Part shown: positions 5,979 to 20,511 of the stretch, one piece after another
How the letters are laid out: every line of letters begins with the position of its first letter
Position numbering within the stretch: the stretch's first letter is position 1
Source of the DNA: Ruminococcus sp.
GTDB lineage: Bacteria; Bacillota; Clostridia; Oscillospirales; Ruminococcaceae
Assembly (NCBI GenBank): GCA_022768805.1
Contig: JALELB010000003.1
Span: forward strand, 1 to 44,956
Direction: 5' to 3'
DNA length: 44,956 nucleotides
The notes under the pieces: generated by a model
The model's database searches: none
Told to the model about the DNA's origin: nothing
The model's input: only the letters and a program-made list of their open reading frames with translations
Program-made: the position numbers and the translations under genes

Positions 5979-7355
5979 CTACAGTTCTCTTGTCACATTC
6001 CTCAGCCATTTTTTCTGTCGGTACCGGAGGGTGGTGATGGGCACCTTGATGACCTCGTCGCTCATGAGCACCACATATACCGCCTCCACAGGCAGCTTCA
6101 GCACAAAGGCGCACAGGGCCCCTAGCAGGATGGAGCCGCCCCACATGGTGCTCACATCAATGATGAGTCCCAACCGGGTATCTCCTCCGGCACGGAAAAT
6201 CCCCACCACCATGGTGGTGTTGTAGGCCTGGAGAAAGACGAAATAGCTCATGACCAGCATCATCACCGTCAGATAGCTGTGGGCCTGCTCCGACAGGGTC
6301 ATGACCCGGTGCATCACCGGCAGTGCCAGCAGCACCACCCCGGCTGCCGCAGCTCCGGCGACAAGGGTAATCCGCACCAAGCGTCCTGCATAGGTCTCCG
6401 CTCGCTTGACGTCCCCCTCCCCGATGGTTCTGCCCAGCAGGATTGCCGTTGCATTCGCCACGCCGAAGGCCACCACCGTGGCAAGATTCCGGGTTACCTG
6501 GGCAACGGAGTTGGCTGCCACCGCAGGACTGCCCAGATGGCCGATGATGACGGAGTTCATGGAAAAGCCTGCGCCCCACATGAGCTCGTTCAGGATCACC
6601 GGCAGGGCATAGTGGAGAAAATCCTTGAACAGTACAGCGTCCCGGACAAAGAGATTCCGGAACCGCAGATGCACCTGGTGATCCTTCCGCCGGGCATAGA
6701 GCAGCACGATCACCAGCTCCAGCATCCGGGCAGCCAGGGTTGCAGCTGCCGCACCTACGATGCCCAGCGCCGGAAGACCCAGCAGACCGAAAATCAGCAA
6801 TGCGTTCAGCAGCACATTCAGCACCAGGGATACAGAATAAACCACCGTGGAAATCACCACCCGCTCCACGCTGCGCATAATATTCAGATAGATAATGGTG
6901 ACTGCCATGATGGGAAAGGTAAGGGACAGCACCCGCAGGTACCTGGCCCCCTCCGCCGCTACCTCCGGCTCATCGGTAAAGATCCGCATGCACAGCTCCG
7001 GCACACAGACTCCCGCCAGGGTGAATACCACGGACACGCACAGGGAAATCCGCATGGCGATGCCCATAATCCGTTCAATGGCGGCGGTGTTTCCCCTGCC
7101 CCAGTACTGGGCAGTGAGCACAGCCGCCCCGGAGGTAATGCCAAAAAAGATCAGGGTCATGATAAACTGCACCTGTCCTGCCAGGGAGGCACCGGACAGT
7201 GCGGTTTCGCTGACCTTGCCCAGCATGATGACATCCGCCGCATTCACTGCCACATTGATTAAATTCTGCAGGGCCATGGGCACCACCAGCGCCGTCACCA
7301 TGCGCCGGAACTGCCGTTTTTCCGCCCTGCTTCCCAAAAGCTCTGTTTCTTCCAT
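5979..7355 (-). CDS. MATE family multidrug/sodium antiporter
   Basis: A 458-residue polytopic inner-membrane protein of the MATE family, which exports drugs or metabolites using Na+ or H+ gradients. It has about twelve hydrophobic segments in two similar halves: the first begins VPMALQNLINVAVNAADVIMLGK and the second ALPVILNELMWGAGFSMNSVIIGHLGS, each with the family's opening pattern. The length fits the usual 440-470. The start at 7355 is preceded by GAAAGGTCGG, and only 26 bases separate it from the upstream DUF3810 gene, so the two are probably cotranscribed. The substrate is unknown. It is near the biosynthetic operon but on the other strand and separated from it by pyk, so a link to product export is only a possibility. 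Confidence 0.92.
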   Translation of the reverse strand: MEETELLGSRAEKRQFRRMVTALVVPMALQNLINVAVNAADVIMLGKVSETALSGASLAGQVQFIMTLIFFGITSGAAVLTAQYWGRGNTAAIERIMGIAMRISLCVSVVFTLAGVCVPELCMRIFTDEPEVAAEGARYLRVLSLTFPIMAVTIIYLNIMRSVERVVISTVVYSVSLVLNVLLNALLIFGLLGLPALGIVGAAAATLAARMLELVIVLLYARRKDHQVHLRFRNLFVRDAVLFKDFLHYALPVILNELMWGAGFSMNSVIIGHLGSPAVAANSVAQVTRNLATVVAFGVANATAILLGRTIGEGDVKRAETYAGRLVRITLVAGAAAAGVVLLALPVMHRVMTLSEQAHSYLTVMMLVMSYFVFLQAYNTTMVVGIFRAGGDTRLGLIIDVSTMWGGSILLGALCAFVLKLPVEAVYVVLMSDEVIKVPITTLRYRQKKWLRNVTREL

Positions 7356-8771: not shown

Positions 8772-10193
8772 ATGCGGAAAACGAAAATCGTTTGTACAGT
8801 GGGCCCTGCAACGGACTCCATCGATGTGCTCCGGGATCTGATGAAAAGCGGCATGAATGTGGCACGCTTCAACTTTTCCCACGGAGACTATGAAACCCAG
8901 AAGCGCCGCTTCGATATGGTATGCCGCCTGCGCAAGGAACTGGATCTTCCCATCGCCACCATGCTGGATACCAAGGGGCCGGAGGTTCGGCTGGGCAGAT
9001 TTGAACAGGATGCGCCGGTGAAGATCCAGGATGGGGATACCTACACCCTGACCACCCGGGAGATTCTCTGCAATGCAAGGGAGGGCTGTGTTTCCTTCAA
9101 GCGGCTGCCCCATGACATCAGCGCCGGCAACCGGATCCTCATCAATGACGGCGTGGTAGAGCTTCTGGCAGAAAAGGTTACGGAAACCGACATTGTCTGC
9201 CGGATTATCCACGGGGGCGTGCTTTCCAACAACAAGGGCATCAACGTGCCCGGGGTCAAGCTTAGCATGCCCTTTCTCAGCGATGCAGATATGAACGATC
9301 TGGAGTTCGGCGCCAAGCAGGGCTTTGACTTCATTGCAGCCAGCTTTGTGCGCACCGCCGCAGACATCAATTACCTGCGCAAATTTACCCAGAGTCTGGG
9401 CTGGTTCGACGTGCGCATCATTGCCAAGATCGAGAACCTGGAGGGTGTGGAGAATATCGACGAAATCCTGGAGGCGGCAGACGGCATTATGGTTGCCCGG
9501 GGAGATATGGGGGTAGAAATCCCCTTTGAACAGATTCCCGCCATCCAGAAGGAGCTGATCCACAAGGGCTACAACGCGGGCAAGCAGGTGATTACCGCCA
9601 CCCAGATGCTGGAATCCATGATTAGTAATCCCCGCCCCACCCGTGCGGAAATCACCGATGTGGCCAACGCCATTTACGACGGCACAAGCGCCATTATGCT
9701 CAGCGGCGAAACTGCTGCCGGCGCCTTCCCGGTGGAATCCGTCAAGACCATGGCGCTGATCGCCCAGACCACCGAAGACGACATTGACTATAAAAAGCGC
9801 TTCTCCCGCCGGGAGGCTGACGTATTCTGCAATATTGCAACTGCCATTTCCCACGCCACCGTAACCACCGCCCACGACCTGAACGCAAAGGCCATTGTCA
9901 CGGTGACCAAGCAGGGCCAGACTGCCCGGCTCATCAGCAAATACCGGCCCACCTGTCCCATCATCAGCTGTACCCCAAGTCAGCGGGTCTGCCGCCAGAT
10001 GAATCTGTCCTGGGGGGTTATGCCCCTGATGATTCAGGAGGAAACCAATTCCGACGAGCTGCTGCAGCACGCTGTGGATTCTGCCAAGAAGGCGGGCTAC
10101 ATCCACACCGGGGATATGGTTGTCATCACAGCCGGGCTGCCCCTGGGCATTTCCGGCACCACCAACCTGATGAAGGTGGACAAGGTGGATTGA
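8772..10193 (+). CDS. pyk: Pyruvate kinase
   Basis: A 473-residue cytoplasmic enzyme that transfers phosphate from phosphoenolpyruvate to ADP, the last step of glycolysis. The N-terminus MRKTKIVCTVGPA, MNVARFNFSHGDY, LDTKGPEVRLG, IIAKIENLEGVENIDEI (catalytic lysine), MVARGDMGVEIPFEQIP and TATQMLESMI are all typical of the family. The C-terminal allosteric domain is present, but there is no extra PEP-utiliser domain as found in Bacillus. The ATG at 8772 is preferred because AAAGGA lies eight bases upstream and the family usually begins there; an in-frame ATG at 8751 lacks such a site. It is monocistronic, with the promoter at 8694 and terminator at 10206. Confidence 0.97.
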   Translation: MRKTKIVCTVGPATDSIDVLRDLMKSGMNVARFNFSHGDYETQKRRFDMVCRLRKELDLPIATMLDTKGPEVRLGRFEQDAPVKIQDGDTYTLTTREILCNAREGCVSFKRLPHDISAGNRILINDGVVELLAEKVTETDIVCRIIHGGVLSNNKGINVPGVKLSMPFLSDADMNDLEFGAKQGFDFIAASFVRTAADINYLRKFTQSLGWFDVRIIAKIENLEGVENIDEILEAADGIMVARGDMGVEIPFEQIPAIQKELIHKGYNAGKQVITATQMLESMISNPRPTRAEITDVANAIYDGTSAIMLSGETAAGAFPVESVKTMALIAQTTEDDIDYKKRFSRREADVFCNIATAISHATVTTAHDLNAKAIVTVTKQGQTARLISKYRPTCPIISCTPSQRVCRQMNLSWGVMPLMIQEETNSDELLQHAVDSAKKAGYIHTGDMVVITAGLPLGISGTTNLMKVDKVD

Positions 10194-10205
10194 ATCGTTT
10201 GCCCG

Positions 10206-10237
10206 GCCTCTCATTCCGCTGGATGAGAGGCTTTTTT
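10206..10237 (+). terminator. Terminator of pyk
   Basis: GCCTCTCAT (10206-10214) pairs perfectly with ATGAGAGGC (10223-10231), followed by six T. It insulates pyk from the following operon. Confidence 0.9.
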
Positions 10238-10350: not shown

Positions 10351-10379
10351 TTGACAGAATTCGCTAGGGATGTTAGCAT
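10351..10379 (+). promoter_or_regulatory. Promoter of the 13-gene acyl-carrier-protein operon
   Basis: A perfect -35 TTGACA (10351-10356), a 17-base spacer and TAGCAT (10374-10379), with TGT directly before the -10 giving an extended -10 element. The first start codon (GTG, 10409) follows with AAGGAG six bases before it. No other promoter was seen inside the operon. Confidence 0.7.
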
Positions 10380-10408: not shown

Positions 10409-11308
10409 GTGGATACATATAAAAAAGCATTTTTATTTAACGGAATCGGCTCCAAGCCGGAAAAACTGCTGATTAACCTGCCGGCGCCTTTGATGGAGCG
10501 CTATCTTGCAGACCGGGATGCAGAGTTTTCCCGGCTGGGTCTGCACACTGACCTGGAGCAGAATACCCCTTTTGACCGCCGGGTTGCAGAATGGCTGATC
10601 TCCCTGCTGTGCGACCGGGTGGTATTCGACCACTATACACAGCTGGGCATCATCCCGGACATCGGCGCCGGGTACAGCTCCGGCATCGTCAGCATCAGCG
10701 CATGCTTCGGCTCCATACCCGATGCCTTTGCCCACGAAATTATTCTGATGAATCGTACCACCATGCAGAACCTTGCTGCAGCAGGCATGGAGTTGGACAT
10801 GGGGGTGGTCATCGGCTTTGGCTATGAGGACGCCGAAAAGCTGCTGTTCCCCCGTTTTTCCCGGGAAGAGCTTGTAATCGGCAGCGGCAATTCCGTGTTC
10901 TGTACCATGATCAGCGGCAGAACGGAGGCTGTCCGCCGGGCACTGGAGCTGATGCTGGAGGAAGGTGCGCTCAAGGCTATCCCCTTCGGCACCGGCGTTG
11001 CCTATCACCACCCGGTTATGGCGGAATACGCCCAGGAATATGTGGATTTCTGCGGTTCTATAGACTATCAGGATCCTGTTCACCCCATTCTGTCCGTATT
11101 TGACAACAGGATTCTGACCCGTGGAGAGGATATTATGCTGGAAAACCAGCGCAATGTGATGACCCCTATCCGGTGGGATCTTGCCATCCGGGAACTGGAG
11201 CAGCTTGGCGTAACAGAATTCTACGACGTCAGCGCAAACGGCGCCGTCAAGAAATTCTCCCGGCTCCGCAGCAGAAGATGTAAAATTTATACGCTTTCGG
11301 ACGTATAA
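10409..11308 (+). CDS. Discrete malonyl/acyl-transferase (FabD-like)
   Basis: A 299-residue FabD/AT-fold protein predicted to move a malonyl or similar acyl group from CoA to an acyl carrier protein. The N-terminal FLFNGIGSK corresponds to FLFPGQGSQ of FabD. GYSSG (88-92) carries the nucleophile Ser90, usually written GHSLG. Arg116 in MNRTTMQ matches the arginine that binds a dicarboxylic extender carboxylate. YHHPVM supplies the catalytic His200. The length matches FabD (about 310). The departures from the FabD consensus (FNGIGSK, GYSSG) suggest a specialised trans-acting enzyme, not the housekeeping FabD. It starts at GTG with AAGGAG upstream and is first in the operon. Malonyl specificity is inferred from the arginine only. 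Confidence 0.82.
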   Translation: MDTYKKAFLFNGIGSKPEKLLINLPAPLMERYLADRDAEFSRLGLHTDLEQNTPFDRRVAEWLISLLCDRVVFDHYTQLGIIPDIGAGYSSGIVSISACFGSIPDAFAHEIILMNRTTMQNLAAAGMELDMGVVIGFGYEDAEKLLFPRFSREELVIGSGNSVFCTMISGRTEAVRRALELMLEEGALKAIPFGTGVAYHHPVMAEYAQEYVDFCGSIDYQDPVHPILSVFDNRILTRGEDIMLENQRNVMTPIRWDLAIRELEQLGVTEFYDVSANGAVKKFSRLRSRRCKIYTLSDV

Positions 11309-11325
11309 GTTTTCATAAATGATCC

Positions 11326-11345
11326 GCACTGCTTTCAGGCAGTGC
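11326..11345 (+). other. Intercistronic hairpin between acyltransferase and ACP
   Basis: GCACTGC (11326-11332) pairs perfectly with GCAGTGC (11339-11345) across a six-base loop. No T run follows, so it is unlikely to be a terminator. It may protect or trim the message ahead of the ACP gene, whose product is probably needed in larger amounts; that role is inference. Confidence 0.5.
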
Positions 11346-11374
11346 AGTCCAAAATCATATGGAGGAATCAAGCA

Positions 11375-11677
11375 ATGAGAGAAATTACCGAGGAAATCAG
11401 ACAGGAAATCACAGACATGATCTTCGACTACTATGCTGAGGAATGCGAAGTGGACAGAAACGAAATCACCATGGACACCAATCCCCAGGAGGATCTGGGC
11501 AGTGATTCCCTGATGTTTGTGGAGCTGATTGAAATGACCTCAGAAAAATACGACCTGGATGTGAAGCTCCAGAGCATCGGCAAGTATATGCTGAAGGCAC
11601 CCATGGATACTATGTCCGATGTGGTGGATATGTTCTGCAAGGTATATCAGTACGGCAACGACATTGTAAACCAGTAA
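11375..11677 (+). CDS. Acyl carrier protein (first of two)
   Basis: A 100-residue acidic, helical acyl carrier protein. The phosphopantetheine attachment motif is DLGSDSLMFVEL with Ser44, followed by a typical helix II and third helix. At 100 residues it is slightly longer than housekeeping AcpP (about 77), with extensions at both ends. The ATG at 11375 is chosen because GGAGGAATCAAGC directly precedes it; an upstream in-frame start at 11342 has no site. It follows the acyltransferase after a 66-base gap with a hairpin and is followed by a crotonase six bases later. It probably carries the extender unit or the growing chain. Confidence 0.9.
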   Translation: MREITEEIRQEITDMIFDYYAEECEVDRNEITMDTNPQEDLGSDSLMFVELIEMTSEKYDLDVKLQSIGKYMLKAPMDTMSDVVDMFCKVYQYGNDIVNQ

Positions 11678-11683
11678 GCCGCC

Positions 11684-12406
11684 ATGCTCAGATCCAATTT
11701 ATCCACACTGGAGACAGAGGGGGAGCTGGCGGTTCTGACCCTGGACAACGGACCGAAAAATCTCCTGTCCCAGCCGGAATTCATAGACCGGAACACACTG
11801 CTGGACTGGCTGGCTGCCAATCCCGGGATCAAGGGACTGATTATCACCGGAAAGGGCAGACATTTTTCCCACGGTGCCGATGTATCCCTGTTTAAGGATG
11901 CCGCAGACAACGGAATTTCCCAGAAGTTGGAGGATGCCCGCAGGCTGCTGCGGAGCATTGAACAGCTGCCCATCCTGACAGCAGCTGCCATTCAGGGCGG
12001 CTGTTTCGGAGGCGGGCTGGAGATTGCCCTGAGCTGTCAGTTCCGGATCTGCGCGCCCAACGTCTTTCTCGGCCTCACCGAGATTATGCACGGAGTAGTG
12101 CCCGGCATGGGCGGCATGGAACGGCTGTACCGGCTTCTGGGAAAGGAAAAGGCCATTTCCATGTGCCTGCGTGGGGAAATGCTCAACGCACAGGACGCCC
12201 TGAAGCTGGGACTGGTCACTGCCGTATGCGAGGAAAAAAATCCTCTGGAGCCTGCCAAGGCCTTTCTCCGGGAGCTGATCGGCAGCAATACGGCCCTGCA
12301 GATCCGCACTGTACTGGAGACCCTCCGCCGTGCGGAAGCCGGTGAGGAGGATCCCTCTAAAGGCGGCTTTGAGCGGGTCCTTGGGGAGGCGAACCAGAAC
12401 CCATGA
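11684..12406 (+). CDS. Enoyl-CoA hydratase/isomerase (crotonase), copy 1
   Basis: A 240-residue crotonase-superfamily protein. The oxyanion-hole elements are GRHFSHGADVSLF (58-70) and GGCFGGGLE (105-113). Both glutamates used by hydratases are present: Glu113 (equivalent to Glu144 of rat hydratase) and Glu133 in LGLTEIMHGVVPGMGG (equivalent to Glu164). So it should be able to add or remove water across a 2,3 double bond. The operon context suggests an ACP-bound substrate, acting after the dehydrogenase. The length is slightly below the usual 255-260. Its stop overlaps the next start (ATGA). It could alternatively be a decarboxylase or isomerase, as in the beta-branching ECH families of polyketide pathways. 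Confidence 0.87.
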   Translation: MLRSNLSTLETEGELAVLTLDNGPKNLLSQPEFIDRNTLLDWLAANPGIKGLIITGKGRHFSHGADVSLFKDAADNGISQKLEDARRLLRSIEQLPILTAAAIQGGCFGGGLEIALSCQFRICAPNVFLGLTEIMHGVVPGMGGMERLYRLLGKEKAISMCLRGEMLNAQDALKLGLVTAVCEEKNPLEPAKAFLRELIGSNTALQIRTVLETLRRAEAGEEDPSKGGFERVLGEANQNP

Positions 12407-12807
12407 AAAGCACCTGTGAGCTGACTGTCCGGGGCTATGAACTGGACTCCTTCGGGCATGTGAACAACGCCGTATATCTGAATTATGCGGAAACCGCCAT
12501 GTGGCACTGCCTGAACCGATACGGGCTGGTGCAGCTGCTCCGGCAGGAGGGGCTGTTTCCTGTGATCCTGGAAACCAGCCTGCGGTACATCCACGAGCTG
12601 CACCTGCTGGATCAGGTGCGGATCGAAACAGAGATGCACTGCTCTGCCGGTCTGATTCAATATACCCACACCGTTATACAGGTTCAAACCGGGCTGACCG
12701 CATGCCGGATTAAGGGCAAGCTCGCTTATGTCAATGGAGAGCGGATGATCTGTGATATTCCCCAGGCAGCCCGAGAACTGATGGAGCAAGAATGCAATGA
12801 AGATTGA
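12403..12807 (+). CDS. Hotdog-fold acyl thioesterase (YbgC/FadM-like, 4HBT)
   Basis: A 134-residue single-domain hotdog protein. The signature ELDSFGHVNNAVYLNYAETA (residues 13-32) contains the catalytic Asp15 and the HVNN loop of the 4-hydroxybenzoyl-CoA thioesterase/YbgC family. It would hydrolyse an acyl thioester, either releasing the finished product from ACP or CoA, or clearing blocked intermediates. It overlaps the preceding crotonase by four bases and the next gene by eleven. A second, unrelated thioesterase closes the operon, so the two probably divide the release and editing jobs. Confidence 0.87.
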   Translation: MKSTCELTVRGYELDSFGHVNNAVYLNYAETAMWHCLNRYGLVQLLRQEGLFPVILETSLRYIHELHLLDQVRIETEMHCSAGLIQYTHTVIQVQTGLTACRIKGKLAYVNGERMICDIPQAARELMEQECNED

Positions 12808-13342
12808 AACCACCCCATTCGTGACCACCGTCACGGATGCCCATTCCCTGTTTGAAGTATTCCAGAGCCGGGACCGGCTGGGAACACCCTGCATGCTGCT
12901 GGTGTACCTGACCGACGGCTTTTTTCTTGGGGAGCCTGCACAGGAGGCTGCTGTGACAGCCTGGCTGACGGAAGCTCCCTTCCTGACGGCGGCAGCCGCA
13001 GAGGATCCGAATCTCTTTCCGGCTTCCCTGCTTGCCGCCTTTGATCTGCGCATCAGCGCCCGCCCCTTTACCGGCCAGTGCCCGGCAGAGAAGCGCACCC
13101 TGCTCTGCGGAAGAAATGCGGAGCAATTCTGTATGCTCACGGAAGAAGCGGAGTCCTTTCCCGCTGGTGCAGCTGCACTGACGGACAAGCTCTTTGCCGG
13201 AAAGACCCCGGAACAGGCGGCGGAAATCACCGCATGCTTTATCTGCGCCCGGCAGGGCTCGGCACAGGATGTACTGAACCGGGAATCCTTTGCCTTTTAC
13301 CGGCTCATGGGCGCAAAGAACGGAGGGAACAGCCATGTCTGA
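12797..13342 (+). CDS. Small protein of uncertain family, possibly a degenerate crotonase-fold subunit
   Basis: A 181-residue protein I do not firmly recognise. The layout loosely follows a crotonase: a hydrophobic strand (PCMLLVYLTDGFFLGEP, about 30-46), a segment SLLAAFDLRISARP (about 77-90) resembling the ALACDLRIA stretch after the oxyanion loop, and a C-terminal helix ending ESFAFYRLM. The active-site features are missing: no GAD loop, no GGG oxyanion glycines and no catalytic glutamates. If the fold is right, it may be an inactive partner in a mixed oligomer with the crotonases on either side. Cysteine content is moderate and there is no signal peptide. It overlaps both neighbours, so it is certainly part of the operon. 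Confidence 0.55.
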   Translation: MKIETTPFVTTVTDAHSLFEVFQSRDRLGTPCMLLVYLTDGFFLGEPAQEAAVTAWLTEAPFLTAAAAEDPNLFPASLLAAFDLRISARPFTGQCPAEKRTLLCGRNAEQFCMLTEEAESFPAGAAALTDKLFAGKTPEQAAEITACFICARQGSAQDVLNRESFAFYRLMGAKNGGNSHV

Positions 13343-14036
13343 ACCGCTTTCCTTTGTGCTGACCGAAGAAGCCGGCATTCTGACCCTGACCATGTCCGCT
13401 CCGGGCAATAACCTGATGACCGGAGCTTTCTTTCAGGAATATGAAGCCGTCATGGAACAGATCCAAAGCCGCAGCACCCAGCCCGGCATCCGGGGATTGA
13501 TTATCCGGGGCGGCGGCAGGCATTTCAGCGTGGGCGCCGATGTGGACGCCCTGGGAGAGCGCTCTGCCCGGGAGCCCTTTGACGGGGTACATCTGCCCCC
13601 CTCCCACTGCCGGCAAAAGCAGCTGTTCACCTTTCTGCGCAGCCTGCCCTTTCCGGTGGTCAGCGTAGTGACCGGCTTCTGTATCGGCTCCGGCAGTGAA
13701 ATCGCTGTCAACAGTCATTACCGGATCTGTGAAAAAAATGCCCGGGTCGGCCAGCCCGAATCCACCTTCGGCATTCTGCCGGCTCTGGGAGGCGTGGCCA
13801 GAACCATCGAGCTGTGCGGCATGTCCGCAGCATACAGACTGGTGATGTCCGGCGAGCTGATCCCGGCGGAAACCGCTTATGCACTGGGCTGGGCGGATCT
13901 GCTCTGCGACAAGAAGCAAGGCTATGCCCGGGCCGTGGAGCTGATCGACTGGATCTCCGGCCACTGCGAAAACTTTTCCGGAGCGGACTGGGGCCAGCTG
14001 CTCCGGCAGTATCTGAATGAAGGAGCAAACACATGA
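13335..14036 (+). CDS. Enoyl-CoA hydratase/isomerase (crotonase), copy 2
   Basis: A 233-residue crotonase with the elements GRHFSVGADVDAL (61-73) and GFCIGSGSE (114-122). Both catalytic glutamates are kept: Glu122 and Glu142 in VGQPESTFGILPALGG. It differs clearly from copy 1 (insertion around 75-95, different C-terminus), so this is not a recent duplication; the two probably act at different steps or chain lengths. The ATG at 13335 is preceded by GGAGGG and overlaps the end of the previous gene. Its own stop overlaps the dehydrogenase start (ATGA), suggesting a functional hydratase/dehydrogenase pair as in FadB. Confidence 0.87.
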   Translation: MSEPLSFVLTEEAGILTLTMSAPGNNLMTGAFFQEYEAVMEQIQSRSTQPGIRGLIIRGGGRHFSVGADVDALGERSAREPFDGVHLPPSHCRQKQLFTFLRSLPFPVVSVVTGFCIGSGSEIAVNSHYRICEKNARVGQPESTFGILPALGGVARTIELCGMSAAYRLVMSGELIPAETAYALGWADLLCDKKQGYARAVELIDWISGHCENFSGADWGQLLRQYLNEGANT

Positions 14037-15154
14037 AATTAGGAATTGCCGGCTTTGGCAAAATGGGGCAGGATATTTTCAATCTCCTGTTCGACAAGCT
14101 CCGGGAGGATGAGTTTGTGGTGCTGGAGCCCATCAACACGGAAAAGCATGCTGCCGCAGTCCAGAAGCAGCTGGACAGGAAACACCGGCGGGGTCTGCTG
14201 ACAGAACAGCAGCTTGCTGACCGGAAGCAGGCTGTGCGCTTTACGGCTGACCCTGAGGATCTGGCGGGCTGCAGCCTGGTGCTGGAAGCCATCACGGAAG
14301 ATCTTGCTGCAAAACAGGCACTGTTTGCAAAGCTGGAACAGATCGTACCGGCGGATTGCCTGCTGCTGACCAATACCTCTTCCCTGCCGGTGGCTGAAGT
14401 ATTCGCTCCGGTTCAGCATACCGGCCGCTGCACCGGTCTGCACTTTTTCTACCCGGTACGGCTGACAGGCTTTGTAGAGGTCAACCTGCTGCCGGAAACC
14501 TCGGCGCAGACTGCCGACGCCGCTTTCCGGCTGGTGCAGCGCATCGGCAAAGAGCCCCTGCCTCTTGAAGGTGCATACCACATGTATCTGAACCAGATCC
14601 TGTCCTGTGCTGTGGCACACGGCTTTGTGCTGCTCCGGCAGTACGGCGTCAGCCCGGCACAGCTGAACAAGGCGCTGTCCGGCCTGATGCCCACAGCTCC
14701 CGTATTTGAGATTCTGGACAGTGTGGGACTGGGGCTAATGGGTGCCGATCCCGACCGGTTCCGCATCCCCCGCAACCGGGAACTGCTGATATACGGTCAT
14801 TCTGCCATGCAGGAGCTGATCGCCGGAGGATGTCCGGAAACGCCCCTTGCTTTTCTGGATTATGCGGCAGAGCACATGCCGGACACGGAGGCGGATGCTT
14901 CCGGTGCAGCGGCGGACATGACCGCGCTGCTGCTCAATGAGATCAGCCGGGCACTGGCGGATTACCAGGGAGACCGGACGCTGTTCTGCCGGGCCATCCA
15001 GGAAACCCTGGGACTGGCAGAGACCCCTGCGGCACTGTATGCTGCATACGGGCCAGTACAGCTGTCTGCTGTTTTGCAGCATTTTTATGAAGCCACAGGC
15101 TTTGCATCCTATCAACCCGCCGGACAGCCGGCGTGGGAACAAACTTTACGCTGA
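14033..15154 (+). CDS. 3-hydroxyacyl-CoA dehydrogenase-type oxidoreductase
   Basis: A 373-residue NAD(P)-dependent dehydrogenase of the 3-hydroxyacyl-CoA dehydrogenase family. Rossmann motif GFGKMG is at 7-12; NTSSLPV (114-120) contains the active serine; GLHFFYPV (135-142) has catalytic His137; Glu149 lies twelve residues later as in the family; YLNQILS provides the asparagine region. It is longer than the 280-residue clostridial 3-hydroxybutyryl-CoA dehydrogenase, with an extra C-terminal helical part from about 285. In this operon it is the only candidate to reduce a beta-keto thioester, replacing FabG. The alternative is oxidation of a hydroxyacyl extender, as FkbK-type homologues do. Cofactor preference cannot be read with confidence. 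Confidence 0.87.
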   Translation: MKLGIAGFGKMGQDIFNLLFDKLREDEFVVLEPINTEKHAAAVQKQLDRKHRRGLLTEQQLADRKQAVRFTADPEDLAGCSLVLEAITEDLAAKQALFAKLEQIVPADCLLLTNTSSLPVAEVFAPVQHTGRCTGLHFFYPVRLTGFVEVNLLPETSAQTADAAFRLVQRIGKEPLPLEGAYHMYLNQILSCAVAHGFVLLRQYGVSPAQLNKALSGLMPTAPVFEILDSVGLGLMGADPDRFRIPRNRELLIYGHSAMQELIAGGCPETPLAFLDYAAEHMPDTEADASGAAADMTALLLNEISRALADYQGDRTLFCRAIQETLGLAETPAALYAAYGPVQLSAVLQHFYEATGFASYQPAGQPAWEQTLR

Positions 15155-15163
15155 GGTGTGAAT

Positions 15164-16372
15164 ATGAATCAAGTTGTAATTACCGGGCTGGGGGCAGTGA
15201 CTGCCATCGGCAATACCGTTCCGGAATACTGGAATAACCTGATTGCCGGTGCATGCGGCATGGACACAATCACCCGGATTTCTACAGAAGAGCACGACAC
15301 TAAGGTTGCGGCTCAGGTTCCGGATACCTTTGAGGCGGAAACCGCCCGTTACTGGAAAAAGCGCCAGCTGAGCGCCACAACCCGGGTAACCCGGACGGGC
15401 CTTGCCAGTGCCGGAGAGGCAGTTGCCGACAGCGGCATTGACTTTTCTGCCTGCGACACTTCCAGAGTGGCGGTCATCTACGGCGTCATTGACAATTCCC
15501 TGGAGGATGCCGAGCTGGACCGTCCGCTGAACATTACCCTGCGGAAAATGCCCAGTGAGCTGCCTGCACTGCTTTCCATCCGGTATGGTCTTACCGGTGC
15601 CGCATTCAACGTAAGCACTGCCTGCGCCTCCTCCGCCTACGCCATGGCACTGGGCAAGCAGATGATCGAAGCCGGTATGTATGATACCGTGATCGTGGGC
15701 GGCGTTTCCAACACCGTAACCCATTCCATCATCAAGGGCTTTAACCAGCTTCTTGCCATGTCCGTGAATCCGGATCCCGCCACCGCCTGCCGTCCCTTTA
15801 CCCGGGACCGGGATGGATTTATTATGGGAGAAGGCGCCGGCACGCTGATTCTGGAATCGGAGCAGACCGCCAGAGCCCGGGGTGCCCGGATCTATTGCAG
15901 GCTGGCAGGCGCACATATGAACAGCGAAGCCCACAATATGACGGCACCTAAGACCAACGGCACCGGCATGGCACTGACTATGGCTGCAGCCCTGCAGAAT
16001 GCGGGTATCCGGCCGGACGAGCTGGACTATATCAACGCCCACGGAACCTCTACCAATCTGAATGACCTGTACGAAACCATGGCAATCAAGTCCCTGCTGG
16101 GAGAGCGGGCATACCAGGTTCCCGTATCCTCCATCAAAGCTGCCATCGGCCATACCCTGGGAGCCGGCGGCGCACTGGAGGCCATCGCCTGTGTCAAGGC
16201 CATCGAAACAGGCATACTCCCCCCCACCATTCACTACGATACGCCGGATCCTGCACTGGATCTGGACTATATTCCCAACAAGGCCAGAGCCCAGCGTATC
16301 CGCACCGCCCTGTCCAATTCCTTCGGCTTCGGCGGTCACAACGCTTCCCTGGTGTTCTGCAGCTGCGAATAA
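15164..16372 (+). CDS. Beta-ketoacyl synthase (FabF/KAS II type)
   Basis: A 402-residue ketosynthase that would condense an acyl chain with malonyl-ACP. The triad is complete: Cys154 in VSTACASSAYA, His293 in NAHGTSTNLND and His330 in KAAIGHTLGAGG, with Lys325. It can therefore catalyse real condensation; it is not a decarboxylating Cys-to-Ser variant or chain length factor. No second ketosynthase or CLF is present, pointing to a FabF-like homodimer used iteratively or for one extension. The ATG at 15164 follows GAGGTG; a GTG two codons earlier overlaps that site. Sequences around the active cysteine differ from housekeeping FabF (usually TACAT or TACSS). Confidence 0.92.
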   Translation: MNQVVITGLGAVTAIGNTVPEYWNNLIAGACGMDTITRISTEEHDTKVAAQVPDTFEAETARYWKKRQLSATTRVTRTGLASAGEAVADSGIDFSACDTSRVAVIYGVIDNSLEDAELDRPLNITLRKMPSELPALLSIRYGLTGAAFNVSTACASSAYAMALGKQMIEAGMYDTVIVGGVSNTVTHSIIKGFNQLLAMSVNPDPATACRPFTRDRDGFIMGEGAGTLILESEQTARARGARIYCRLAGAHMNSEAHNMTAPKTNGTGMALTMAAALQNAGIRPDELDYINAHGTSTNLNDLYETMAIKSLLGERAYQVPVSSIKAAIGHTLGAGGALEAIACVKAIETGILPPTIHYDTPDPALDLDYIPNKARAQRIRTALSNSFGFGGHNASLVFCSCE

Positions 16373-16399
16373 GCCGTCACCTGACAGAAAGGATGTTCT

Positions 16400-16759
16400 A
16401 TGCCAATTTGCCAACTGAAAACAAACTGCCCCCTGGATGATGCAGCCCGGGAGGCCCTGCTGCTGGATACTGCTGCAACGGCTGCGGAGCTTCTGCGCAA
16501 GCCCCTGCCGGCGGTGATGGTTATGCTGGACTCCTGCGATATGCGGATGAACGGCACGGCGGATACTGTTTTTTTTGCGGAGTTCCGCTATATCCTGCCC
16601 CAGGAGTATACAGATCAGAAGCAGGCATTCCTGGAGCTTTTTGCAGACCGGATGCTGACCCTGTTCCGGCAGCATACCGGGGTGGATCCTCACCGGATCT
16701 ATATGCAGTTTACGGAAATGACACGTGAAAGTGCCTGGAAATATACCGGAAAGGACTGA
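16400..16759 (+). CDS. MIF-type tautomerase
   Basis: A 119-residue protein matching the macrophage migration inhibitory factor / phenylpyruvate tautomerase family over its whole length. It begins MPICQLKTNCP (MIF: MPMFIVNTNVP), so the catalytic N-terminal proline is available after methionine removal. Lys34 in LLRKPLPAVMV matches the MIF active-site Lys32. The C-terminal DPHRIYMQFTEM matches the SPDRVYINYYDM region. It should catalyse a keto-enol or double-bond shift on an intermediate, possibly setting up cyclisation. It lies 27 bases after the ketosynthase and six before the hydrolase. A MIF homologue in an ACP-dependent operon is unusual; the substrate is inferred only. Confidence 0.85.
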   Translation: MPICQLKTNCPLDDAAREALLLDTAATAAELLRKPLPAVMVMLDSCDMRMNGTADTVFFAEFRYILPQEYTDQKQAFLELFADRMLTLFRQHTGVDPHRIYMQFTEMTRESAWKYTGKD

Positions 16760-16764
16760 CAGAT

Positions 16765-17886
16765 ATGAAATGGGCGATCAGAGACCTGCTGAACCCTGTG
16801 GTAACGCGCTCCATGATCTTCGGCGCAAACCCCTTTGATATTGAATACATTCTCAAGAAAATAGACGGCATCAAGGTGATGAGCGGCAAGCAGATCCAGA
16901 ACGTGTGGCTGGGTGAGTGGGCGGAAAAAATCCGCAAATATACTGACCTTGCCCGGCAGGCTGCCGAAAGCGGCCACCGGATTTCTGCCCGGGAATACTA
17001 TAAGCTGGCAGCAGAATGCCATTATGCCTGCTTCATGATTAACACAGAGGATATTGACAAGAAGGCTGAAATCTATGACGGGCTTGTCCAGGCATACCGC
17101 CAGTATATTGCCTGCTGCGACAACCGGGTGGAATATGTGGAGATTAACACAGAATACGGGGTGCTGCCCGCATACCTCCACTTTCCGGATGACGGCAGTC
17201 ACGGCCCCTACCCCTGCGTGATGACCTATTCCGGCATCGGCAGCTGCAAGGAAGAACTGGAGATGCTGGCGGATCCGTTGACAAAGCGGGGACTGGCTGT
17301 GCTCACACCGGATATGCCCGGCGCCGGTGCAGCAGTAATCCGGAACGGCATCAAATGCGGCGGCCCTATGCTGGAGTCTGCCTTTGACAGCATTTATGCA
17401 TTCCTGACAGAAAGACCGGATATTGACCAGGACAGGCTTGCAAACTTCGGTCTCTGCATGGGCGGCGGCTATGCATTCCGTGCTTCCGCCAAGCATCCGG
17501 AAACCAGATGCTGCGTCAGCCTGTTCCCCCTGCTGATGAATTTTGCCGACCAGAACGCCATCCCGGTCTGGATGAAACGGGGCAAGTGGTCCTCCTTCCA
17601 GTATGCGGACGACTACCTGGAGGGCATGAAGCGCATTGAGGAGGGTACCGTTGCCTGTGACTTCCTGATGGCATACAGCGATGATGACAACTGGATGGAC
17701 ACAGACGCCTCCATGCGGCTGTATAACAAGGCCACCGGATATAAGGAAAAGATTTATATTGCGGAAAAGCCCGCCTATGTTTCCGAGGAAACCATCATGC
17801 ACGCTATGCCGGTGGGGGAACAGTTCCACTGGGTAAAGCATCGGGCAGCAGATTTTCTTGCAGACCGTCTGGCGGAAAGGAAATAA
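16765..17886 (+). CDS. FrsA/DUF1100-like alpha/beta hydrolase with cysteine nucleophile
   Basis: A 373-residue alpha/beta hydrolase with a helical N-terminal region (1-120) and hydrolase core (125-370). The layout recalls the FrsA/DUF1100 family, which includes C-C bond hydrolases such as dihydroxypseudooxynicotine hydrolase and fungal Ayg1. The nucleophile elbow reads GLCMGGG (229-235), placing Cys231 where most members have Ser, as in dienelactone hydrolase (GYCLGG). Acid candidates are Asp306-308 and histidine candidates His346 or His355. It may cleave a C-C bond or an ester/lactone late in the pathway. It is two bases from the ligase start. Family placement is moderately sure; the reaction is inferred. 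Confidence 0.78.
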   Translation: MKWAIRDLLNPVVTRSMIFGANPFDIEYILKKIDGIKVMSGKQIQNVWLGEWAEKIRKYTDLARQAAESGHRISAREYYKLAAECHYACFMINTEDIDKKAEIYDGLVQAYRQYIACCDNRVEYVEINTEYGVLPAYLHFPDDGSHGPYPCVMTYSGIGSCKEELEMLADPLTKRGLAVLTPDMPGAGAAVIRNGIKCGGPMLESAFDSIYAFLTERPDIDQDRLANFGLCMGGGYAFRASAKHPETRCCVSLFPLLMNFADQNAIPVWMKRGKWSSFQYADDYLEGMKRIEEGTVACDFLMAYSDDDNWMDTDASMRLYNKATGYKEKIYIAEKPAYVSEETIMHAMPVGEQFHWVKHRAADFLADRLAERK

Positions 17887-17887
17887 G

Positions 17888-19447
17888 ATGAACAAGACAT
17901 TTTTTGACTATTACGGCAGATACGCCCAGGAGACACCGGACAAGGTGCTGCTGCGGATCGACGAAAACACCCTGACCTACCGGGAGTTTATGGAGAAAAC
18001 CGCACAGCTTGGCTCCGGCATGCAGAAGCTGGGGATCCGACCGGATGACAAGGTGGGCATCATTATGCCCAACAGCATCGACTGGTATCTGGTATACTGG
18101 TCCGCAGTACGCATCGGGGCACAGCCTGTGCCCATCGACCCCCAGAGCGGCAGCCTGGAGCTGTCCCGGCTGATTCCTGCCACTGCTGTAAAAATCTGCT
18201 TCCTGGCAGAGAAATACCGCAACAACCGGATCATTGACGCAGTCAGCGCCCTGGTGCCGGAGCAGCTGACCCAGGAGAAGTGTATCTGCTTTGCGCCGAA
18301 GGAGGCGCTGCCGGCCCATGATGTCTTTATCACCGAAGAAGAATTCCTGGATAACTGGTGCAGCACCCTATGTGAACCCTATATGCCCCAGGAGGGACAC
18401 GTGATGTCCCTTGCCTGCACCTCCGGAAGCACCGGCACACCCAAGGTGCTGGCCGTGCCCTATCAGGGCTTCCTGGTCTCCCAGGAGGACATGGGCTCCT
18501 ATCTGCACTTTACCGCGGATGATGTGATGATGCTGGGCATGACCCTGTACCACCAGGGAGGCTTCGGCATGGGACTGCAGATGACCCTCAAGGGGGGCAC
18601 CGTGCTGTATCAGCCCCAGTTCAATCCGGTTACCTTTCTGGAAACCGTACAAAAGTATCACATCAGTGTGATCCAGTTGACCTCCACCCTGGCAAAGGTT
18701 CTGCTGTCCACCCCGGACTTTGACAAGTACGACCTTTCCAGCGTCCGGATATGTTACTTTGCAGGCGAGGTACTGCCCAAGGAGCTGGCGGATATTTTCG
18801 TTCAGCGGCTTGGTATTCGGGTCATCAACGTGATCGGCTCCTCGGAGACCGCCACTATGGTGGTATGGGACTCCCAGAAGGACGGGGATTCTGACCCCAG
18901 TGACTTCAAGAAGCTGCCTTTTACCGATGTGAAGGTGCTGGATGATAACCGGAATGAGGCTGCCGAGGGGGAAACCGGTGAGCTGTGCGTCTTTACGGAT
19001 GCAGTTATCCTGGAGTATTTCGGCAATCCAGAGCTGTCCAGGGAGAAAATCCTTCCGGATGAGCAGGGCAGACGCTGGTTCTGCACCGGCGATCTGGTGA
19101 CAAAGCTGCCCGGCGGTGCAGTTCGCTTTGCCGGCAGAAGCAAGCGGATCATCAAGCGGGGCGGCAATCTGGTGCATGCAGAGGAAGTAGAAGCCTGCCT
19201 GCTGACCCACCCGGATATTGCAGCTGCTGCCGTAACGGACGAGCCTCACCCGGTCATCGGCCAGCAGATCGTCGCATACATCCAGCCCAGAGGGGAAGCA
19301 CGGATCACCCGGGGCGCCCTGGCTCACTATTTCGACGGCAAGCTGTCCGCCTACAAGATTCCGGACAAGGTGGTGCTGGTCGAGGAGATCCCCAAGGACA
19401 TCGGCAAGATTCAGTTTAAATATCTGAGAAAAAAGGAGTATAAATAA
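17888..19447 (+). CDS. AMP-forming acyl-CoA/acyl-ACP synthetase
   Basis: A 519-residue member of the adenylate-forming ANL superfamily. The P-loop is CTSGSTGTPK (about 177-186), the adenine motif NVIGSSETA (about 314-322), the TGDL aspartate about 399 and the hinge RSKRIIKRGG about 417; the C-terminal PKDIGKIQFKYLRK has the catalytic lysine. It activates a carboxylic acid as acyl-AMP and transfers it to a thiol. The partner is probably the ACP encoded two bases downstream, giving starter loading. The acid cannot be predicted; there is no NRPS-like carrier domain attached. The ATG at 17888 follows the previous stop directly, with GGAAAGGAAA upstream. Confidence 0.92.
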   Translation: MNKTFFDYYGRYAQETPDKVLLRIDENTLTYREFMEKTAQLGSGMQKLGIRPDDKVGIIMPNSIDWYLVYWSAVRIGAQPVPIDPQSGSLELSRLIPATAVKICFLAEKYRNNRIIDAVSALVPEQLTQEKCICFAPKEALPAHDVFITEEEFLDNWCSTLCEPYMPQEGHVMSLACTSGSTGTPKVLAVPYQGFLVSQEDMGSYLHFTADDVMMLGMTLYHQGGFGMGLQMTLKGGTVLYQPQFNPVTFLETVQKYHISVIQLTSTLAKVLLSTPDFDKYDLSSVRICYFAGEVLPKELADIFVQRLGIRVINVIGSSETATMVVWDSQKDGDSDPSDFKKLPFTDVKVLDDNRNEAAEGETGELCVFTDAVILEYFGNPELSREKILPDEQGRRWFCTGDLVTKLPGGAVRFAGRSKRIIKRGGNLVHAEEVEACLLTHPDIAAAAVTDEPHPVIGQQIVAYIQPRGEARITRGALAHYFDGKLSAYKIPDKVVLVEEIPKDIGKIQFKYLRKKEYK

Positions 19448-19448
19448 T

Positions 19449-19700
19449 ATGAATAATCTGAACTGGGATGCATTCAGGCAGCACATTTCCGACTATGTGG
19501 GCGTGGATGCAGCGGAAATTACGGAAGACACGGATGTGTATGACGACCTGTACCTGGACTCCCTGGGGCTCTTCGGTCTGGGCTCCCACATTACCGAAAC
19601 CTATAAGCTGAACATTCCCCTGTCCCTGGTGGCTTCGATCAGCACTGTAGGTGAGATCTTCCGGCTGCTCAACGAAAAGGGCACTCCGGTTGAGGGCTGA
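19449..19700 (+). CDS. Acyl carrier protein (second of two)
   Basis: An 83-residue acidic carrier protein with phosphopantetheine serine Ser38 in DLYLDSLGLFGL. It is quite different from the first ACP, which argues for a separate role. Being between the ligase and type II thioesterase suggests it is the ligase's acceptor (starter or acyl-bound form). It begins one base after the ligase stop and ends two bases before the thioesterase start. Confidence 0.9.
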   Translation: MNNLNWDAFRQHISDYVGVDAAEITEDTDVYDDLYLDSLGLFGLGSHITETYKLNIPLSLVASISTVGEIFRLLNEKGTPVEG

Positions 19701-19702
19701 GC

Positions 19703-20395
19703 ATGGTACTGTTTTTTCTTCCCCATGCAGGGGGCTCTGCCAAAAGCTACTGCACCTTCAAGCGCTATCTGCCCCGGGACCTGACGGTGGTTCCCATGGA
19801 GCTGTCCGGCAGATTCACCCGTTCCGGCGAGCCCCTGCTGACAGAAGTATCCGCATGCGTGGCAGATCTGATTGCAAGACACCGCAGTCTGCTGGAGCAG
19901 GAGCCCTACGCCCTTTTCGGACACAGCATGGGCACCCTGCTGGCTGCCGAGCTGATTCGTCAGACCCGTGCCGCCGGTCTTCCCGGCCCCCGGCATGCCT
20001 TCATGTCCGGCAGATGCGCCCCCTGTGACGGCACCCGTATGCTGAATGCTGACCATCTTTCTGACGAGGAGCTGGTGCAGTTTTTCTCCCAGGGAGGCCT
20101 CAGCACCGCTGTGCCGGATACGGATCCGGAGCTGCGACGTATGCTGAACCGTATTCTCTGCACGGATGTGCGTATGGCGGATAAATTTTCTCTGACTCCC
20201 CAGGAAGCGCCCTTTGGCTGTGATATTACCGTGCTGTACGGCACGGAGGATAAGATCCTCCGGAACGTAGATCTTTCCGGATGGGATCGGTACGCCCAGC
20301 ATAAATGCGAATATTTCGGCTTTTCCGGAGGGCATTTCTTCTTTGCTCAGCATCTGAAGGAGATCTGCGAGCTGATTACACAGCGGATCGGCTGA
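19703..20395 (+). CDS. Type II thioesterase (alpha/beta hydrolase, PKS/NRPS editing type)
   Basis: A 230-residue external thioesterase of the kind found beside polyketide and non-ribosomal peptide synthases. The N-terminal FFLPHAGGSAKSY is typical, the nucleophile is Ser75 in FGHSMG (72-77), and SGGHFFFAQH near 210 supplies the histidine. It usually removes misprimed or stalled acyl groups from carrier proteins. It is the last gene of the operon, followed 18 bases later by a strong terminator. Its presence is one of the best signs that the operon is a natural-product pathway and not primary beta-oxidation. Confidence 0.9.
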   Translation: MVLFFLPHAGGSAKSYCTFKRYLPRDLTVVPMELSGRFTRSGEPLLTEVSACVADLIARHRSLLEQEPYALFGHSMGTLLAAELIRQTRAAGLPGPRHAFMSGRCAPCDGTRMLNADHLSDEELVQFFSQGGLSTAVPDTDPELRRMLNRILCTDVRMADKFSLTPQEAPFGCDITVLYGTEDKILRNVDLSGWDRYAQHKCEYFGFSGGHFFFAQHLKEICELITQRIG

Positions 20396-20413: not shown

Positions 20414-20456
20414 ATGCCACAGTATCCGGAACCTGTCCGGATACTGCGGCATTTTC
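20414..20456 (+). terminator. Terminator of the biosynthetic operon
   Basis: A 16-base inverted repeat with one mismatch (20414-20429 pairing with 20437-20452; core CAGTATCCGG/CCGGATACTG) is followed by TTTTC. It closes the rightward operon 18 bases after the last stop. Confidence 0.85.
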
Positions 20457-20472: not shown

Positions 20473-20511
20473 AAAACAAAAGCGGCATGGTTTTCACCAT
20501 GCCGCCTTTTT
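20473..20511. terminator. Bidirectional terminator between the operon and nifJ
   Basis: GCGGCATGG (20482-20490) pairs with CCATGCCGC (20497-20505), flanked by T on both strands (CTTTTT on plus; TTTTG on minus). It ends the leftward nifJ message and backs up the rightward operon terminator. Confidence 0.85.

Follow-up and report, generated by a model that had tools for sequence, protein, structure and literature searches.

A conserved thirteen-gene operon of cellulolytic ruminococci as a candidate dissociated, partially reducing type II polyketide pathway

The aryl polyene (APE) systems, such as ape of Escherichia coli, are type II polyketide synthases (PKS) which combine a discrete ketosynthase (KS), two acyl carrier proteins (ACP), an acid ligase and a thioesterase with reduction and dehydration steps, no enoyl reductase being listed in the source, which is drawn on in excerpt, like all others cited here; the known systems of this type use a chain-length factor (PMC8253772). 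In the cellulolytic anaerobe Clostridium thermocellum, the celluxanthene or flavoaffinin cluster (cex/faf), which has an AMP ligase, an ACP and an alpha/beta hydrolase, is responsible for a yellow pigment that binds to cellulose (PMC12144888, PMC11839114), and includes an iterative type I PKS (CexF) and two KASIII proteins (PMC12144888). The present study deals with a block of thirteen genes, referred to here as the operon, at positions 10409-20395 of a 44,956-nucleotide stretch of DNA (the window; contig JALELB010000003.1 of assembly GCA_022768805.1, positions 1 to 44,956) from Ruminococcus sp., which resembles both of these systems in part and presents a combination of enzymes of its own.

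The operon shares with the APE systems the discrete KS, the two ACPs, the acid ligase and a thioesterase, and no match to an enoyl reductase was found among its thirteen genes in the Pfam and NCBIfam searches. It differs from them, however, in carrying a 3-hydroxyacyl-CoA-dehydrogenase-type enzyme (HCDH) and crotonases in place of the short-chain dehydrogenase/reductase (SDR) ketoreductase and the hot-dog dehydratase (the single FabA/FabZ-family match of the genome lies in the fatty acid synthesis locus, outside the operon), in the addition of a MIF-type tautomerase and an FrsA-like hydrolase, and in the lack of a match to a methyltransferase, a glycosyl/acyltransferase or an RND transporter among the thirteen genes. 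The difference from cex lies in the core enzymes, given that the operon has neither a multidomain PKS in the open reading frame (ORF) listing nor a separate KASIII; its KS does match PF08545 over 35 residues (25.5 bits, cut-off 24), and is FabF-like overall. A cispentacin-like (amc) cluster was also considered, as AmcB-like ACP and AmcF-like KS families were among the NCBIfam matches, and was rejected: the KS reaches 248.3 of the 325 bits needed, and this match is unspecific because the housekeeping FabF also scores 202.9.

On balance, and going by sequence comparison, we lean towards reading the locus as an operon of cellulolytic ruminococci that is dedicated to a specialised metabolite, and which would encode a type II PKS, dissociated and only partially reducing, that forms an unsaturated, probably polyene, chain. 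The preliminary description of this DNA had proposed a candidate novel pathway of the type II PKS or fatty acid synthesis kind with dissociated ACPs, and had named two outcomes that would count against it, a match to a characterised pathway and a failure of the genes to co-occur elsewhere. The proposal holds up on both counts, since the open-licence literature searched showed no characterised pathway built from these genes, the genes co-occur in other ruminococci, and the genes for fatty acid synthesis lie on another contig. No description of the operon was found in the open-licence full texts, a coverage that leaves out the survey of ruminal polyketide genes by Moreira et al. 2020, and a search of these texts for a type II PKS together with an HCDH, an enoyl-CoA hydratase and a polyene gave no paper.

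The conservation of the block was followed through two peptides taken from an alignment of ruminococcal MIF proteins, which were scanned against genome contigs and gave 63 loci, a procedure from which distant or rare copies may escape; one further locus (L006), from a genome of the same genus (G002, 2,573,208 bases in one contig), brought the set to 64. The record titles of the 63 loci are Ruminococcus, R. flavefaciens, R. albus, Oscillospiraceae bacterium and, once, Bacillota bacterium. All thirteen genes were detected by tblastn in 48 of the 64 loci, and 46 of these 48 keep the gene order of the window, the other two (L076 and L079) having the FrsA-like gene before the KS; among the 16 incomplete loci, 13 miss only genes that would lie beyond the end of the contig. 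The complete operon is found in nine isolates of R. flavefaciens (YL228, MA2007, ND2009, FD-1, SAb67, Y1, 007c, YAD2003 and ATCC 19208) and two of R. albus (AR67 and KH2T6). Since the flanking ORFs differ between loci (eight compared, ten flanking ORFs annotated), the thirteen genes form a conserved unit, and the block is conserved beyond chance. The ratio of nonsynonymous to synonymous substitution (dN/dS), computed with our own script for one pair only, the window and L006, is 0.009-0.16 for twelve of the genes and 0.32 for gene 5.

The relationship of the operon to primary metabolism can be judged from the rest of the window genome, which is 99.35% complete. The genes for FabH, FabK, FabG, FabF and FabZ are on contig 64 and not on that of the operon, and a housekeeping role in fatty acid synthesis was therefore rejected. 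The locus concerned (L097:7022-10986; G000, contig 64) has the order FabH, FabK, FabG, FabF, and a FabD gene is missing from the place between FabK and FabG. Only two proteins of the genome match the KS family PF00109, namely the operon KS and FabF: the latter passes the cut-off of TIGR03150 with 544.1 bits, whereas the former stays under it (418.5 against 493.75) and exceeds that of the PRK07314 subfamily (411.8 against 387).

An improbable alternative is that of a second fatty acid synthesis system or a salvage route of primary metabolism, which might, for example, make branched-chain membrane lipids from rumen acids. The FabF-like KS, the FabD-like acyltransferase and the resemblance of the ligase to fatty-acid CoA ligases are consistent with it, as is the fact that ruminococci need branched-chain acids. 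On the other hand, the fatty acid genes elsewhere in the genome include their own enoyl reductase, FabK, whereas the operon has no match to an enoyl reductase, FabG or FabZ; the operon was found in only 9 of 297 genomes of the family; and we know of no role in lipid synthesis for MIF-type tautomerases or AntI-like hydrolases.

The enzymes that would act on the beta carbon raise the question of beta-oxidation. The two active-type crotonases, ECH1 and ECH2, are the only ECH_1-family proteins of the window genome, and HCDH is the only protein over the 3HCDH_N cut-off, a second match (20.9 bits) being below it; the search of the genome with PF00725 gave no match. A role in beta-oxidation or butyrate-type metabolism is thus unsupported, and because these enzymes are unique in the genome they have no evident partner except the operon KS. 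Other operon-positive genomes often have 2 to 9 HCDH-like matches each, mostly weak. Among the solved structures, HCDH matches those of 3-hydroxybutyryl-CoA dehydrogenase (3.6e-38); here as elsewhere, structure matches are taken as signs of kinship alone. HCDH and the crotonases suit each other, rather than FabG and FabZ, because they have S-3-hydroxyacyl stereochemistry in common.

Catalytic motifs were counted in a picked subset of the window and up to 25 loci, from which rows with odd gene ends were removed (two each for the acyltransferase and ECH1, three for ECH2 and one each for HCDH and KS), and the roles given to the residues of HCDH, the crotonases and the ligase are those general to their families. 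The residues are invariant in KS (Cys/His/His in 22 of 22), HCDH (Ser116/His137/Glu149/Asn187, 25/25), ECH1 and ECH2 (the glutamate pair in 23/23 and 22/22) and the ligase (Lys507, 26/26), and, among all the orthologs counted, in both ACPs. The acyltransferase has no Pfam match and falls below the cut-off of TIGR00128 (66.6 against 260.9 bits), while the profile of its orthologs finds FabD among the solved structures at 5.8e-29; Ser90 and His200 are kept in 22 of 22 orthologs and Arg116 in 18. In general, twelve of the thirteen genes have a family match, that of the acyltransferase and that of the tautomerase being under the cut-off. Most of what the preliminary description had read from the letters is thus borne out: the thirteen closely spaced genes with their coordinates and motifs, the two distinct ACPs, the KS triad (under its original numbering when counted from the ATG at 15164), the acyl-AMP ligase and the type II thioesterase. 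For the discrete acyltransferase, the serine and the histidine stood as general features and the arginine did not.

This intact synthetic core also bears on the catabolic explanation, in which the operon would degrade an aromatic or acyl compound using the ACPs as carriers. HCDH, the crotonases, the DHPON-type hydrolase and the tautomerase all have catabolic relatives, whose roles are in part general knowledge. A KS with its Cys-His-His triad, a malonyltransferase-like acyltransferase and two ACPs point to synthesis, however, and there is no separate thiolase gene among the thirteen (the KS itself has a thiolase match under the cut-off only), which makes a catabolic route highly improbable.

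Gene 5, which has no Pfam or NCBIfam match, is probably a degenerate crotonase, to judge from a single hhalign comparison with the ECH1 profile (94.3% probability, E 1.1e-7); the profiles of KS, FrsA, HCDH and the ligase gave at most 1.1%. The profile of its orthologs found nothing below E 0.7 among the solved structures.

The hydrolase and the tautomerase are encoded next to each other. The FrsA-like hydrolase is homologous to DHPON hydrolase (1.1e-15), AntI (2.6e-14) and Ayg1-type enzymes (7.6e-12 and 5.1e-8) across both the helical and the hydrolase domains, these being its nearest solved relatives of known function. The trimming of polyketides by AntI and by the Ayg1-type enzymes relies on a serine nucleophile and a histidine (PMC11165489). 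In the operon enzyme, by contrast, the GXSXG serine is replaced by Cys231 in the motif GLCMG (26 of 26), and Tyr338 occupies the column of the AntI histidine, with His346 and His355 invariant nearby. A second FrsA-like gene, 39% identical, was observed about 5 kb past the operon in one locus (L058:15359), and two other loci (L070:8353 and L072:4173) have an additional, weakly similar match to an AMP ligase immediately after it. The tautomerase, although under the Pfam cut-off for MIF and encoded within a polyketide-type operon, has the features of its superfamily, with the catalytic N-terminal proline after the methionine and Lys34 of a KP motif in 26 of 26 orthologs, and the ortholog profile finds the MIF family among the solved structures at 6.3e-10.

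Given these components, a scheme may be proposed for the pathway. The AMP ligase would activate an acid, perhaps an aryl one, and load it onto the neighbouring ACP2, while the acyltransferase would place malonyl on ACP1 and the KS would condense the two. HCDH would then reduce the beta-ketone to the (S)-3-hydroxyacyl intermediate, replacing FabG, and one or both of the crotonases would dehydrate it, replacing FabZ, with gene 5 possibly serving as a structural partner of the active crotonases. Because no enoyl reductase was recognised among the thirteen genes, one double bond would be left in each full round. The FrsA/AntI-like cysteine enzyme might trim, cyclise or transfer the chain, the MIF-type tautomerase might interconvert the keto and enol forms of an intermediate of the alpha-keto or 1,3-dicarbonyl type, and the two thioesterases would release and edit the product; the number of iterations, the starter and the mode of release are likewise part of the proposal.

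Several observations weigh against this polyene scheme. The usual substrates of HCDH and crotonases are CoA esters, and their activity on ACP-bound chains is assumed. No chain-length factor was found, the operon having a single KS and the only other PF00109 protein of the genome being FabF, and a single round would yield only a short enoyl unit. The chemistry of the FrsA-like hydrolase may differ from that of AntI because of the cysteine in place of the serine and the tyrosine in the histidine column. The nearest solved relatives of the ligase are adenylation domains of nonribosomal peptide synthetases (NRPS), followed by aryl-acid ligases; an aryl substrate is only a guess, because in NCBIfam the fatty-acid CoA ligases come first, with a score that stays far under the cut-off (228.5 against 476 bits). 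Arg116 is absent from 4 of the 22 acyltransferase orthologs, gene 5 reaches only 4.2% with the ECH2 profile in hhalign, unlike ECH1, and some loci depart from the full set, with no gene 5 detected by tblastn in L077 and L044 (the latter also cut by the contig end) and no acyltransferase upstream of ACP1 in L024, although about 3.9 kb of sequence is present there.

A possibility to be taken seriously, if less probable than a polyene chain, is that one or two rounds give a short or colourless acyl product, for example an unsaturated acid, a butenolide or a lipid head, which would act as a signal, an antibiotic or a modification of the cell envelope. The single KS without a chain-length factor is consistent with this, two ACPs and one ligase would suit the coupling of two units, and the functionally comparable celluxanthenes are antibacterial, their loss in a cex mutant leaving growth on cellulose visibly the same, and neither growth nor the use of cellulose being markedly altered (PMC12144888). 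There is no decisive point on the other side; no lipid-head transferase or export gene was found among the thirteen genes, with the flanks partly annotated.

Returning to the specialised-metabolite reading, the distribution of the operon was followed in sampled draws of genomes. The FrsA profile at 1e-30 was positive in 9 of the 297 genomes of the window's family, taken to be the Ruminococcaceae of GTDB, and the MIF protein search found the same nine and a lone weak MIF in G148 (L014, L021), which was rejected as a copy of the operon, with no other operon gene within 8 kb. At the level of the order, the MIF profile was positive in 3 of 394 genomes, namely that of the window and, weakly, G086 (4.7e-5), which belongs to the window's family, and G356 (7.9e-5), whereas at the level of the phylum the FrsA profile at 1e-30 found the window genome alone among 398. 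In the draws made, the operon is restricted to ruminococcal genomes.

GH48, which is used as a marker of cellulases, is found in 34 of the 297 family genomes, and all nine operon-positive genomes are among them. The association is strong in Fisher's exact test, both by genome (1.2e-9) and by genus (8.2e-6, with 5/5 positive genera among 14/126), a count that corrects only partly for relatedness; the draws for the operon and for GH48 were taken as identical genomes, given that their handles and counts agree. The operon thus tracks with GH48. Against a tight link, 25 of the 34 GH48 genomes have no operon, and these include members of operon-positive genera (G021, G160 and G230 in g20; G164, G233 and G286 in g29). 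G001, of the same genus as the window, has GH48 and no MIF or FrsA-like match, and at 83% completeness may reflect either a loss or an assembly gap.

The coordinates of the operon and its signals are given in Table 1. All thirteen ORFs are on the + strand, tightly packed with overlaps or short gaps, and TAAGGAG precedes the GTG start codon at 10409. The upstream neighbour, recognised by eye as a pyruvate kinase, ends at 10193 and is followed by a hairpin at 10205-10232, while the scan picked up a further inverted repeat beyond the last stop codon (20414-20452) for the - strand alone. The overlaps, the short gaps and the terminator-like hairpin fit one predicted transcript. As for the single promoter and terminator of the preliminary description, a terminator-like hairpin is present (24 terminator-like sites in total, against 10.7 in shuffled sequences, standard deviation 3.5), and promoter-like sites of the kind found here are at chance level (11 observed, 7.8 in shuffles, standard deviation 3.0). 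No Rfam family and no tRNA was detected in the window. A MATE-family transporter is encoded upstream of the operon on the opposite strand (5982-7355, -), and another downstream of it in L083; the other eight annotated flanking ORFs are not MATE.

Table 1. Positions of the operon genes and of the neighbouring signals in the window, with the evidence for each
Feature	Position	Strand	Evidence
Promoter-like site	10351..10379	+	TTGACA-17-TAGCAT, consensus match
AT, stand-alone malonyltransferase-like acyltransferase (FabD kin)	10409..11308	+	Ser90/Arg116/His200
ACP1, acyl carrier protein	11375..11677	+	PF00550; DSL serine 51/51, window included
ECH1, crotonase	11684..12406	+	PF00378 2.8e-33; catalytic E113 and E133
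Hot-dog (4HBT) thioesterase	12403..12807	+	PF13279 2.2e-16
Gene 5, probable degenerate crotonase	12797..13342	+	no Pfam/NCBIfam match
ECH2, second crotonase	13335..14036	+	PF00378 1e-25; catalytic E122 and E142
HCDH, 3-hydroxyacyl-CoA-dehydrogenase-type enzyme	14033..15154	+	PF02737 1.1e-37
KS, FabF-like ketosynthase	15158..16372	+	Cys156/His295/His332 (154/293/330 from ATG 15164)
MIF-type tautomerase	16400..16759	+	PF01187 17.3 bits, under cut-off 22
FrsA/AntI-like alpha/beta hydrolase	16765..17886	+	PF06500; Cys231 at nucleophile position
AMP-forming acyl or aryl acid ligase	17888..19447	+	PF00501 5.3e-62; Lys507
ACP2, second carrier protein, adjoins ligase	19449..19700	+	PF00550 7.2e-09; DSL serine 58/58, window included
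Type II thioesterase (alpha/beta hydrolase)	19703..20395	+	PF00975 3.5e-30
Terminator-like hairpin	20482..20505	+	3' of last operon stop codon

Finally, the operon may be considered in the light of the yellow pigment for which R. flavefaciens is noted, above all when on cellulose (PMC8865330, PMC9653558); yellow affinity substances of this species appear in a reference list (PMC2844368). The clostridial yellow substance has been solved as the celluxanthenes or flavoaffinins (PMC12144888, PMC11839114), and in 2025 neither a cex-like cluster nor celluxanthenes were found in R. flavefaciens DSM 25089 (PMC12144888), also called strain 17 (PMC6456569). No pigment genes of R. flavefaciens were found in the open-licence literature searched. 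We suggest, tentatively and at longer odds than the pathway itself, that the operon could make this pigment. As a polyene, the pigment would then be analogous to the celluxanthenes, with a convergent dissociated-PKS route that employs HCDH and crotonases, and it would be finished by the cysteine-type AntI-like enzyme and by the MIF tautomerase, the latter with an enol similar to aryl- or indole-pyruvate as its substrate.

In 8 of the 13 operon-positive genomes searched, including five of the nine named R. flavefaciens isolates, there are no more than two KS, each as long as a stand-alone enzyme, and in several isolates the operon is the only KS locus besides one FabF-length gene. More than two KS are found in ND2009, FD-1, SAb67 and G002, and ATCC 19208 has one extra type I PKS frame. 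In SAb67 (L035; G1055), 18 of 21 KS matches fall within one large modular PKS region at about 40-125 kb of contig 14, in frames of up to 3,096 amino acids, and the extra KS of ATCC 19208 (L059; G1060, contig 1, 13-26 kb) lies in a type I PKS-like frame of 2358 amino acids, with an HCDH in a 299-amino-acid frame about 12 kb away.

The link to the pigment is weakened by the presence of the operon in two R. albus isolates, given that one review implies, in the part drawn on here, that R. albus has no yellow pigment (PMC8865330); another source, which treats isolates of R. albus and R. flavefaciens jointly, reports that they are yellow-pigmented on cellulose (PMC11055587). A pigment of non-PKS origin, or another PKS in genomes that have one, could also account for the colour. 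For R. champanellensis, no statement on a pigment was found in the open-licence literature, including the excerpt of PMC8865330.

If the proposed scheme is true, the operon would represent a further way to an unsaturated polyketide, in which beta-oxidation-type enzymes make up the reducing half, and its carriers are important fibre degraders of the rumen and gut. It also offers a concrete candidate locus for the yellow pigment, now that one strain of R. flavefaciens has been reported to lack cex (PMC12144888).

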